DNA of 44,106 nucleotides from a virus. Positions 3,490-7,970 of this stretch are shown in pieces. Where the stretch lies: positions 1-44,106 of the IMG/VR virus record IMGVR_UViG_3300032268_000134, one strand, 5' to 3'. The position numbers were made by a program, and so were the translations under genes. Position 1 is the first letter of the stretch; the number at the start of each line of letters is the position of its first letter. Under the pieces are notes generated by a model that saw only the letters and a program-made list of their open reading frames with translations, had not been told where the DNA came from and did not search any database.

Positions 3490-3879
3490 ATGCCCCATAT
3501 GCCCATGAGCCACGAAGAAGACCCCAAGAAAAAGCTGTTGGAAGAGCTTGGTGACACCTCAAACATTGAGTTGTTTCACAACCAAGTGCTTCTCGCCGTA
3601 TATTTGCGGCCAGAAAAGACAAAATCTGGCCTGATTTTGACTGCAAATCACCTCGATGAGGATCGATACCAGTCAAAAGTTGGCCTGCTGGTCAAGCGGG
3701 GGCCTCTCGCATTTGAGCAGGACGGCAATTGGTTCACTGGAGTGACCTTCCAAGACCACGACTGGCTCATTTTCCGCCCATCTGACGGCTGGTCTATCAC
3801 CGTCAATGGCGTTTTGTGCCGCATTTTTGATGACATCAGCATCAAGGGCCGCGCACCCCACCCAGATTCCGTTTATTGA
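3490..3879 (+). CDS. GroES-like (Cpn10-fold) phage protein
   Basis: 129 aa. After a charged N-terminus the sequence follows the Cpn10 pattern: a strand with NQVLLAVYLRPEKTKSGLIL (compare the GroES pattern xDRVxVKxxExxxKSxGGIVL), then DEDRYQSKVGLLVKRGP (the GroES 'GxVxAVGxG' segment), DHDWLIFRPSDGWSITVNG (the GroES 'GDxVxF..GYG...' segment) and a final strand CRIFDDISIKGR. Phage co-chaperonins of this type (T4 Gp31 is the classic case) cap GroEL so that it can fold the capsid protein. The gene lies among capsid assembly genes, which fits. A structural role using the same fold cannot be excluded. Confidence 0.6.
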   Translation: MPHMPMSHEEDPKKKLLEELGDTSNIELFHNQVLLAVYLRPEKTKSGLILTANHLDEDRYQSKVGLLVKRGPLAFEQDGNWFTGVTFQDHDWLIFRPSDGWSITVNGVLCRIFDDISIKGRAPHPDSVY

Positions 3880-5231: not shown

Positions 5232-5428
5232 TCAAGCCGTCCACCGTCTACAAGAAGATCGAAACCCTTCGGCGCATAATACGCGCCGAGGGAACCCAAG
5301 CAATTCAAGACGCATGGGATCAGATTGAGCCGCACACCTCTACATTTATGAATAATGGAATTAGATATGGAACTCGAAGAGAGAATGACGAAGACAGTCA
5401 AGGGTCAGGTGACGTGGGCCAACCCTGA
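5228..5428 (+). CDS. Small hypothetical protein overlapping the next gene
   Basis: 66 aa, starting in the ATGA of the preceding stop. The first 40 residues (MIKPSTVYKKIETLRRIIRA and on) look like a normal helical protein. The last 24 are Asn/Gly/Asp-rich and lie in DNA also used, in another frame, by the Cys-rich gene starting at or after 5355. The functional part may therefore be the N-terminal half, with the tail an extension over the next gene. Function unknown. Confidence 0.5.
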   Translation: MIKPSTVYKKIETLRRIIRAEGTQAIQDAWDQIEPHTSTFMNNGIRYGTRRENDEDSQGSGDVGQP

Positions 5429-5582
5429 TATGAATGCGAAGTGCGACGAATGTCGCCACTTCAAGGTAGACCCCAAGGACAAGAAGTTGGGCAAATGCGA
5501 CCTTGTGAAGGTGTTCACAAGAAAAGCAGGCGCGTTATTCAATGGCGAAATAGCTATTGCGTGTTCAAAGTTTGATCGATAA
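5355..5582 (+). CDS. Small Cys-rich, probably zinc-binding protein
   Basis: 75 aa from ATG 5355; in-frame ATGs at 5367 and 5385 are alternatives and no start has a strong Shine-Dalgarno. The C-terminal 50 residues carry CDECRHFKV then KCDLVK and AIACSKF, giving a C-x2-C ... C ... C arrangement that would bind one zinc or a similar metal. It is the last gene before the 511-nt noncoding region with the tRNA. Comparable four-Cys miniproteins are frequent in phage structural operons; their job is unknown. Confidence 0.65.
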   Translation: MELDMELEERMTKTVKGQVTWANPDMNAKCDECRHFKVDPKDKKLGKCDLVKVFTRKAGALFNGEIAIACSKFDR

Positions 5583-5730
5583 TAGTGTTGTCGGGTGCAG
5601 GTTCGATTCCTGCTCGCTGGTCGAGACTTGGTAGAGCGGGGTGTCGAACCCCCTACCGTAAAAAAGTAACATAACGTGGTGACACGTTGACCTGACAGTC
5701 GGGAAAGACCGACAACCGCTTTCTGGCGGA
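5583..5730 (+). ncRNA. Candidate structured RNA upstream of the tRNA
   Basis: No open frame here looks coding. The segment is a run of strong hairpins: GCAGG-TTCGATT-CCTGC (5597-5613), identical in form to a tRNA T-arm; GGTAG-AGC-GGGGT-GTCGA-ACCCC-CTACC (5630-5657); AACGTG-GTGA-CACGTT with a GNRA-type loop (5673-5688); then CGG-GAAAGA-CCG and CCGC-TTTCTG-GCGG (5700-5711 and 5716-5729) enclosed by GACAGT/ACTGTC (5694-5699 with 5730-5735). The last stem uses the first five bases of the tRNA. Whether this is a discrete RNA, a tRNA relic or part of one larger RNA with the tRNA embedded is open. Confidence 0.45.
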
Positions 5731-5807
5731 CTGTCTGTGGCGCAACTGGATAGCGCACGGGGCTTCTATCCCCATGGTTGTGGGTTCGAGTCCTACCAGA
5801 CAGGCCA
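5731..5807 (+). tRNA. tRNA-Arg (anticodon TCT), CCA encoded
   Basis: Full cloverleaf readable by eye: acceptor CTGTCTG pairs with CAGACAG (5797-5803), discriminator G 5804, encoded CCA 5805-5807. D-stem GCGC/GCGC with loop AACTGGATA. Anticodon stem CGGGG/CCCCA (outermost C-A mismatch) with loop CTTCTAT, T33 and anticodon TCT at 5765-5767. T-stem GTGGG/CCTAC with loop TTCGAGT. It reads AGA (and by wobble AGG) arginine codons. The gene lies between the head-assembly genes and the capsid genes, within a noncoding stretch. Confidence 0.9.
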
Positions 5808-6093
5808 CCTGAGCGCGGCGAATGCTAAAGAAAGCAAGACCCCAACCTATAGGGGAGAACAACGCCAAGGTGGATTCCGCCCAGTATCTGGGGATGCGGC
5901 GCAACCGCTGAAAGGATAAGCCGAGGTGGGGGGCTGCCCCCTTAAAATCTCGTCGGTGCCGCGCTCTTTACTTGTCGTAAAAATAGAGGTATGGTGCGTA
6001 CATCCATCCCCTCGGCGGGGCTGTCCAAATCACCCCCTTGGTCATAAATCGCCTCGGTGCGCGAAATAGACCTCCTGTAAAGGAGATTTCCGC
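5808..6093 (+). other. Noncoding region downstream of tRNA, structured
   Basis: 286 nt without a credible gene. Visible structure: GGCG (5817-5820) pairs with CGCC (5863-5866) around a CCCC/GGGG hairpin (5840-5843 / 5852-5855); CCGC-CCAG-TAT-CTGG-GGAT-GCGG (5877-5899); a GGGGG-CTG-CCCCC hairpin (5929-5941) that may terminate an RNA; and CCCC/GGGG around 6008-6020. The last 20 bases carry the strong ribosome binding site AAGGAG for the gene at 6094. Together with 5583-5730 it may form a larger RNA with the tRNA embedded. Confidence 0.4.
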
Positions 6094-7047
6094 ATGGCAA
6101 ATACGTTTGCGCCTATCGGTTTCGCCCAGTATTCAGGCACTGGTTCGGCTCCAACCTACGAGCAGACCATGGCCGCGATTGCATCGGGCAATACGACCCC
6201 AATTTTCTTCAATGACCCTGTAATGCAGGCCTCCAACGCCACTGGCGTAGGCACTGGTTACATCGCCCAAGCAACTGGCCCAGTAACCCTGACCGTTGCT
6301 GCCACGGGTATCGCCACTGTCGCCACTGGCGCAATGACGATCACCTTCACCGCGATCTCGTCCAGCACCGCAAACATCCCAACCTTCGCATCGACCAACT
6401 GGGCAGCCCCAGTGGGTTCTGTTGTGGTTGTGAGCAACGCGACTGGCGTTCCAAACGGTGTCTTCACGGTCACCTCGGCAACCTCCACGACTGTCGTGGT
6501 TCAAAGCACTGGCGTTGCGGCTGCAACCTCGGCAACCTCCACCCCCGTGGTCACCGTCTATGTCCCCGTGGCTGGCGTGTTCACTGGCTGCAAATACCTG
6601 TCGGTATCGCAGAAGCGCACCGTATGGTCGAACTACTGGGGCGGCTCGGACGCTTCTGGTGATGTGATTGCCTATGTGATCACCGATCCAAATGCTCGCT
6701 TCACCGTGCAGACTGGCAACTCGAACACCACGGCAACGGCTGTCGGCCAAGCCAACGTGGGCGAGAACATCGGCTTCAACTGGCAGGACAGCGCCACGAC
6801 TGGCGAAACGAATGGCCGTACCTCGACGGGTATCTCCACCATGTTTGCTGATCAGTTCACCCTGTCTTCGGCTGGTGTGCTGGGTGCAAACGCTGCGTTG
6901 CCGTTCCGCATTATTGCACTTGCCAACTTCGAGCCTGGCCAGACTTCGCCACTGGCTGGGATCAACGGCAATGACGCTACGAGCGGGTACAACGAGATCA
7001 TCGTTGGTTTCAACAACGCAATGCCACGCAACTTTGCTGGCGTGTAA
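6094..7047 (+). CDS. Capsid decoration/stabilisation-like protein with inserted Ser/Thr-rich domain
   Basis: 317 aa, strong Shine-Dalgarno AAGGAGA. The N-terminus (MANTFAPIGFAQYSGTGSAP) and the C-terminal half (TGCKYLSVSQKRTVWSNYW, DVIAYVITDPNARFTVQT, PFRIIALANFEPG, EIIVGFNNAMPRNFAGV) match a type of protein I know as encoded directly before the major capsid protein in many podovirus-like phages. Between them, residues about 70-155, sits a Thr/Val/Ala-rich stretch with beta-strand character, resembling an immunoglobulin-like or adhesin insertion. Located 11 nt before the capsid gene. A head decoration or head-fibre role is the likeliest; it could also help stabilise the shell. Confidence 0.6.
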   Translation: MANTFAPIGFAQYSGTGSAPTYEQTMAAIASGNTTPIFFNDPVMQASNATGVGTGYIAQATGPVTLTVAATGIATVATGAMTITFTAISSSTANIPTFASTNWAAPVGSVVVVSNATGVPNGVFTVTSATSTTVVVQSTGVAAATSATSTPVVTVYVPVAGVFTGCKYLSVSQKRTVWSNYWGGSDASGDVIAYVITDPNARFTVQTGNSNTTATAVGQANVGENIGFNWQDSATTGETNGRTSTGISTMFADQFTLSSAGVLGANAALPFRIIALANFEPGQTSPLAGINGNDATSGYNEIIVGFNNAMPRNFAGV

Positions 7048-7058
7048 GGAGATAGAAA

Positions 7059-7970
7059 ATGGCTGTTAATCTTTCAGCAATCAAAGACCTTCTCCTACCA
7101 GGCTTGCGTGGTATCGAAGGCAAGTACGAGATGATCCCATCTCAGTACGATAAAATCTTCACGAAGCACAATTCCAAGATGGCGCTTGAGCGCACCGCAG
7201 AAATGCGCTTCTTGGGCTTCGCGCAGTTGAAAACCGAAGGTGGCCAGACCGCATTCGACAACGGCGCTGGTGAGCGTTTTATCTACAACCAAGAGCATAC
7301 GGAAATCGGCTTGGGCTACGCAATCACTCGCAAAGCCATTGACGATAACTTGTACAAAACGCAGTTTGCACCCTCGAACCTCGGCTTGGTGGAATCGTTC
7401 CAGCAGACCAAGGAAATCTATGGCGCGAACATCCTGAACACCGCAACCACCTACAACGGTGCAGTTGGCGGTGACGGCGTTGCTCTGATCTCGACCTCGC
7501 ACCCAATCGATGGTGGCACGGTTGCAAACCGCCCAACGACCGATGTGGAACTGAACGAAGCGACCCTGCTGAATGGCATGATCTCGATTCGTACCAACTT
7601 CCGCGATCAGGCTGGCTTGAAGGTATTCGCCCGTGGCCGCAAGCTGATTGTCCCACCACAACTGGAACCAGTTGCAATTCGTCTGACGAAGACCGAACTG
7701 CGTCCAGGCACGGCGGACAACGATGTCAACGCGATCATGTCCACCGCTGGCGGCTTGCCAGAGGGCTACATGGTCAACGACTTCTTGACCTCGACTGGCG
7801 CATGGTTCCTGCTGACCAACATCGACGGCCTGTCCTACATGGAGCGGGTAAAGTTCGAGACAGACATGCAGGTGGACTTCGTCACGGACAACTTGCTGGT
7901 CAAGGGCTACGAGCGTTACTCCTTCGGGTACTACAACTGGCGCTCGATCTTTGGTTCGTTCCCAACCTAA
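7059..7970 (+). CDS. Major capsid protein (HK97 fold, Mu gpT-like)
   Basis: 303 aa, Shine-Dalgarno AAGGAG before ATG 7059. The sequence shows the pattern of Mu gpT-like capsid proteins: N-terminal helix, E-loop region with FDNGAGERFIYNQEHTEIGLGYAITRKAIDDN, a central region with VALISTSHPIDGG, the A-domain segment GLKVFARGRKLIVPPQLEPVA, and a C-terminal part ending in YERYSFGYYNWRSIFGS. It forms the icosahedral shell. The gene is followed by a strong terminator hairpin at 7983-8000, so capsid mRNA probably ends there in part. No N-terminal protease-cleaved delta domain is obvious, which fits the presence of a separate scaffold-like gene. Confidence 0.85.
   Translation: MAVNLSAIKDLLLPGLRGIEGKYEMIPSQYDKIFTKHNSKMALERTAEMRFLGFAQLKTEGGQTAFDNGAGERFIYNQEHTEIGLGYAITRKAIDDNLYKTQFAPSNLGLVESFQQTKEIYGANILNTATTYNGAVGGDGVALISTSHPIDGGTVANRPTTDVELNEATLLNGMISIRTNFRDQAGLKVFARGRKLIVPPQLEPVAIRLTKTELRPGTADNDVNAIMSTAGGLPEGYMVNDFLTSTGAWFLLTNIDGLSYMERVKFETDMQVDFVTDNLLVKGYERYSFGYYNWRSIFGSFPT

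Follow-up and report, generated by a model that had tools for sequence, protein, structure and literature searches.

Introduction

In T-box stem I and in the RNase P specificity domain, T-loops form or bind surfaces that resemble the tRNA elbow. A T-loop is also found in the YrlA-type bacterial Y RNAs, non-coding tRNA mimics that work with Ro60; phage genomes, too, are known to encode Y RNAs. Close to phage tRNA genes, further structured RNAs have been described. Theta ribozymes adjoin phage tRNAs and combine an HDV-type fold with a cleavage site at the edge of the tRNA (PMC10879173). GOLLD and ROOL are structured RNAs of unknown function from phages and prophages that are often located near tRNA islands, and GOLLD can hold tRNAs in a linker (PMC12286853).

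Here we investigated a gap in the head gene region of a viral genome, IMG/VR record IMGVR_UViG_3300032268_000134, which was analyzed as one stretch of 44,106 nucleotides (the window). An earlier note, made from the sequence alone, had described this gap as a hairpin-rich non-coding region with an embedded tRNA-Arg, which might belong to the GOLLD or ROOL type, represent a new class or be a decayed tRNA cluster. We report that it contains a compact RNA with two T-arms. GOLLD and ROOL are much larger (GOLLD often exceeds 800 nt) and form multimeric cages, whereas the core of this RNA is self-contained and comprises about 95-135 nt. It shares the T-arm sequence and a D-loop-like GG with tRNA (RF00005); unlike tRNA it has neither acceptor stem nor anticodon arm, and it has two T-arms and a long-range helix of 4 bp. 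The T-loop modules of T-box stem I and RNase P have a different secondary structure and show no family match to the core, and none of the Rfam ribozyme models matched it.

Results

The gap upstream of the major head gene is a mosaic

The gap extends exactly from position 5583 to 6093 (511 nt), flanked upstream by a gene of 75 aa (5355-5582) and downstream by one of 317 aa (6094-7047); since the ORFs within it are short and unsupported, the description as a region without a credible gene was correct. The note had also placed it between head-assembly and capsid genes. The major head protein is encoded by the second gene 3' of the gap (7059-7970; PHROG 371, E=1.6e-11). Head assembly on the upstream side is indicated only by position and by a gene for a GroES-like co-chaperonin within the head region (3490-3879; PHROG 3188, E=1.4e-5). 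Folding energies were below those of shuffled sequence both for the whole gap (z=-2.7) and for 5583-5730 (z=-3.6). The elements identified are listed in Table 1.

Table 1. Elements identified in the gap; positions are those of the window
Element	Position	Strand	Sequence or structure	Basis
Double-T-arm RNA core	5591-5694	+		Model R1; cmsearch 43.9 bits, E=4.2e-9
T-arm 1	5597-5613	+	GCAGG-UUCGAUU-CCUGC	Canonical T-loop; stem covaries in family
P1, 5' strand	5619-5622	+	GGUC	Pairs with 5689-5692
D-loop-like joining strand	5626-5637	+	ACUUGGUAGAGC (family consensus AUCUGGUGAAGGA)	Conserved GG; sequence alignment
T-arm 2, divergent	5638-5653	+	GGGG-UGUCGAAC-CCCC, 8-nt loop	Aligned to T-arm 2 of the model
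HP3 hairpin	5673-5688	+	AACGUG-GUGA-CACGUU	Covaries in family
P1, 3' strand	5689-5692	+	GACC	Pairs with 5619-5622; exact complement across loci, covaries in family
HP4	5693-5717	+	UGACA-[GUCG]-GGAAAGAC-[CGAC]-AACC	58 unrelated flank clusters; directly after P1 in the window
Hairpin between HP4 and tRNA	5716-5729	+	CCGC-UUUCUG-GCGG	Some relatives have similar hairpins of the UUCUGG type (by eye)
tRNA-Arg (anticodon UCU)	5731-5807	+	Cloverleaf	ARAGORN; Rfam RF00005, 57.3 bits
Structured element	5811-5966	+	Closed by GAGCGCGGCG/UGCCGCGCUC, 10-bp helix	RNAalifold, 5 close relatives
Promoter-like sequence	5967-5995	+	TTTACT-17-TATGGT	Recognized by eye; close relatives L003, L011 and L012 have similar sites
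Leader hairpin A	6008-6020	+	CCCC-UCGGC-GGGG	Stem of at least 5 bp in 42 of 46 distinct leaders; 4 bp in the window
Leader hairpin B	6049-6064	+	UCGC-CUCGGUGC-GCGA	Near-invariant in 24 aligned leaders; stem invariant, so covariation uninformative
Leader hairpin C with Shine-Dalgarno	6072-6085	+	CUCCU-GUAA-AGGAG	Sequence; conserved in many relatives

ARAGORN and Rfam agreed on the tRNA-Arg, as proposed before. It is an ordinary tRNA and should read AGA and AGG, which constitute 24% of the Arg codons in the ORFs sampled (a mechanical ORF set) and are absent from the head genes 6094-7047 and 7059-7970. Apart from this tRNA, no Rfam family reached its gathering score in the gap. Phage origin, structure and the neighbouring tRNA are what would be expected of a GOLLD or ROOL RNA, but the Rfam models gave no match at gathering score in the window or at E≤10 in 5400-6200, and the core is short and self-contained; membership in either family is thus highly improbable.

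Relatives of the window phage were collected via the head protein (80) and via the neighbouring gene (63, the two sets overlapping). Among the close relatives the gap is modular: the window shares segment 5588-5808 with L004, whereas L003 and L005 lack it and retain the remainder, and other relatives have different tRNAs (Met, Thr, Pro) or no tRNA at this position. In L079 (1560-2250) an ORF that by eye resembles an HNH endonuclease lies at the place of the tRNA-Met of L025, and of the tRNA itself just the 3' end is left. Because modules are gained and lost independently among relatives, a single large or ornate RNA across the whole gap was rejected. The gap is a mosaic in which a copy of the double-T-arm RNA and an ordinary tRNA are followed by an element specific to the lineage and by the head-operon leader. 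According to the earlier note, homologous phages with unrelated sequence here, apart from the tRNA, would refute its reading. Many close relatives, in fact most of them, do lack the double-T-arm RNA; the family is visible only across unrelated phages.

The double-T-arm RNA is shared by unrelated phages

T-arm 1 and the segment following it were used as a search pattern, which identified 39 contigs. The fold established by comparison starts with T-arm 1, followed by helix P1, which encloses T-arm 2 and the hairpins HP2 and HP3; HP4 is often present at the end. The family consensus is T-arm 1 - UCGCU - P1 - GAGAUCUGGUGAAGGA - T-arm 2 - HP2 - AAGNCAGUG - HP3 (GGU in the loop) - P1', the GGU in the HP3 segment being found at 36 of 48 loci. 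P1 is formed by a stretch of 4 nt after T-arm 1, for which an exact Watson-Crick complement was present downstream, nearly always straight after a hairpin, in all 24 loci inspected. Its sequence varies between loci (GGCC/GGCC, GGUC/GACC, GACC/GGUC, UGCC/GGCA and, in L297, GAUC/GAUC).

The seed of model R1 consists of seven sequences from other phages, aligned with MAFFT without the use of structure. In this seed 96.3% of the cells are paired and two-sided changes occur in 18 of 24 pairs, with a covariation score of 0.607 versus 0.184 for shuffled and at most 0.123 for slid alignments. For 41 distinct sequences aligned on R1, in an alignment that is fitted to the model and therefore somewhat biased, 97.4% of the cells are paired, 20 of 24 pairs covary and the score is 0.507 versus 0.126. 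The comparison that the note had proposed thus revealed very strong covariation among unrelated phages for 5591-5717.

Besides the window, R1 was found at nearly 50 phage loci, with 41 strong loci and further members in Xylophilus phage Lumi (69492-69613, minus strand), Manatee Spring phage, L121, L122 and L015; these further members, like the window, are outside the seed. An independent pattern, CGAGATCNGGTGAAGGA, which does not contain any full helix, yielded 29 new contigs with ten R1 members at E<1e-18, the remaining contigs being mostly coding-like sequence; comparison of the distinct new matches showed covariation for 19 of 24 pairs. The RNA is present in 29 of 30 records searched, nearly always as one strong copy. 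BLASTN searches with three member RNAs against isolated phages detected one true member only, phage Lumi. No member was found in 398 Pseudomonadota genomes, a weak negative, as the filters were strict and the search had no positive control. Mu-gpT-DE, another candidate, had no match in L246.

We consider it practically certain that this conserved RNA family is real. Rfam 15 contains no family for the double-T-arm core, and the motif sequences, searched as strings in the open-access literature, gave no match. As an RNA family, the double-T-arm RNA appears to be new; the broad kind, phage non-coding RNA near tRNAs, is already known. Of the readings offered by the note, that of a new class is the one supported for 5591-5717.

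The T-arms, with their canonical T-loops, could also be remnants of dead tRNAs. For 5591-5717 ARAGORN made no tRNA call, and the best Rfam match was a weak one to tRNA-Sec (20.5 bits against a cut-off of 47, E=0.25); we take the joining strand to resemble the D-arm of tRNA-Ser or tRNA-Leu. Decay cannot keep P1, HP2 and HP3 covarying across dozens of unrelated phages, nor does it explain the long-range P1 and the common architecture. A decayed tRNA cluster is therefore very unlikely and is refuted for the present constraint; an origin from tRNA is possible. A Y RNA of the Ro60 system would likewise be a tRNA-mimicking RNA. A search for a TROVE/Ro60 gene detected it in a control genome but in none of 30 records, of which 29 carry the RNA; a part of these records may be fragmentary, and Ro60 could also come from the host. 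We give this reading very little weight. In L317 ARAGORN reported a permuted tmRNA (6953-7584) overlapping the span of the double-T-arm RNA; inspection by eye placed the tmRNA-like part just upstream, with the core as a separate element.

The copy in the window is divergent

R1 was run against the whole window with filters off and gave a single match, the next best having E=0.29. The score is 43.9 bits versus about 125 for the best member; L165, L298 and L305 are among the members that score best. T-arm 1, P1, T-arm 2 and HP3 can be assigned, and HP2 is weak or lost, being hardly formed. Most members have a canonical T-arm 2 (GG-UUCRANY-CC). The HP3 stem is altered yet paired in L015 and L297 (GGCGUG/CACGUC). 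Folded as a single sequence, the window prefers pairing of T-arm 1 with T-arm 2. In the window, CCGACAAC of HP4 could pair with positions 5587-5594 (GTTGTCGG), a complementarity not seen in L015 or L121. GUCAG/CUGAC, as a helix closing the fold outside T-arm 1, is compatible with a few members only. With the model match and the family helices, we are highly confident that the window copy is a true member.

The hairpins listed in the earlier note fared differently. Conserved counterparts exist elsewhere for the first four, namely T-arm 1 for 5597-5613, T-arm 2 within 5630-5657, HP3 for 5673-5688, and HP4 plus the hairpin with the UUUCUG loop for 5700-5729. The hairpins 5817-5866, 5877-5899 and 5929-5941 lie in an element for which few relatives are known, so that comparative support is thin.

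HP4 is a separable module

IMG/VR contained the HP4 pattern TGACAGNCNGGAAAGACNGNCAACC in at least 119 contigs, whereas 84,980 species genomes gave only 13 matches. Loop and flanks are fixed by this pattern; the free positions, two on each side, were complementary in 116 of 116 cases in 58 clusters (G-U allowed), compared to 86 in the best of 10,000 shuffles. A second pattern, in which the first pair was forced to change and three pairs were free, had nine matches, all with complementary stems. HP4 follows P1 in 21 of 48 cores only and is also found without the core, showing that the two are separable. The 5' end of a tRNA or tRNA-like sequence follows 0-8 nt after HP4 in several unrelated phages; other copies precede an ORF or a terminator-like hairpin.

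Another explanation is a riboswitch that senses a ligand or tRNA, or else a small ribozyme that cleaves itself; the active part would then be HP4 (invariant GGAAAGAC loop, UGACA and AACC flanks). A constant loop with constant flanks on a freely covarying stem is typical of binding or catalytic cores, although here both were set by the search pattern, and HDV-like theta ribozymes adjoin phage tRNAs (PMC10879173). No Rfam ribozyme or riboswitch family matches, no constant class of downstream genes was noticed and no switching helix was seen, and we regard this explanation as improbable.

HP4 also occurs in L149, L152, L157, L167 and similar contigs (40 contigs, one cluster), in hairpin arrays with repeated GGAAAGACC and UGACCA between terminator-like hairpins; these arrays are probably another structured phage RNA. 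In L150 (2800-2870), L145, L147 and L275, tRNA-like sequences without a normal anticodon arm lie right after HP4.

Genomic context of the core

A tRNA on the same strand within 350 nt was found at 10 of 48 loci and in none of 695 control windows from the same contigs, a count that includes near-identical phages (L291/L311) and thus represents fewer independent cases. In L291/L311, L293 and L354 the core starts 0-3 nt past the 3' end of the tRNA. Terminators within 170 nt downstream were present at 5 of 36 loci versus 2.4% of the controls; in Xylophilus phage Lumi the terminator follows straight after P1. At most loci there is neither a tRNA nor a terminator nearby.

The strongest rival to a separate RNA is a cis element, in which core and HP4 would govern processing, stability or antitermination of a polycistronic transcript, for instance by offering RNase a landing site or by acting as a barrier, making a separate RNA unnecessary. 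The core fits tightly between co-directional ORFs in L287, L301 and L288, and HP4 is located at 5' UTR-like and pre-terminator positions and before several tRNAs of one array. On the other hand, a compact multi-helix fold with two T-arms exceeds what a simple processing site needs, the downstream genes seem to differ, and some copies are followed by a terminator. We consider this explanation rather unlikely.

The downstream element and the head-operon leader

The element 5811-5966 is known from close relatives only, and 7 of its 46 predicted pairs covary (RNAalifold, 5 close relatives). Long-range helices like GAGCGCGGC/GCCGCGCUC enclose different interiors in relatives (L046, L121, L122, L263, L013) and are sometimes located right before T-arm 1. 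A scan with a strict promoter consensus found no site. The head-operon leader (6000-6093) has no Rfam match and is not unusually stable in the window (z=-1.1); it is kept in about 46 distinct leaders. Hairpins A and B have similar loops of the CYCGGYGY type, and the stem of hairpin A varies while its pairing is kept. Since the twin hairpins share one loop type, the leader suggests a candidate protein-binding, autoregulatory site for translational control of the head genes. The functions of the element and the leader would be separate from that of the double-T-arm RNA.

Discussion

Our tentative reading is that 5591-5717 is a divergent member of an uncatalogued phage RNA family, which would be processed to a small RNA with a double tRNA elbow and act in trans as a tRNA mimic. 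The small non-coding RNA would be made from the transcript of the phage tRNA island, its ends being set by tRNA processing; in phages without nearby tRNAs it may be produced within a short or terminator-ended transcript. The probable docking partners of the two T-loops are D-loop-like GG segments, one in the joining strand and one in the HP3 loop; this contact would result in two modules resembling the tRNA elbow. Acting in trans, such an RNA may occupy a tRNA-binding factor of the host or of the phage in the course of infection. We lean slightly towards a separate RNA species that acts in trans; mimicry of tRNA as its mode of action is a more cautious proposal. The broadest version, a widespread uncatalogued class of non-coding RNAs with two tRNA-elbow modules that act in trans as tRNA mimics (for example as decoys for host defences that target tRNA) and in which HP4 is a separate module common to several unrelated phage RNAs, is speculative and would go further than we currently expect.

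A compact family with two canonical T-arms is present in dozens of unrelated phages, often beside tRNA genes, and has no Rfam entry. With HP4, a very small and strongly conserved RNA signature is available for searches of any phage data set. The family makes it testable why phages keep non-coding RNAs in tRNA islands, and whether some of these RNAs mimic tRNAs to reach tRNA-binding host factors.
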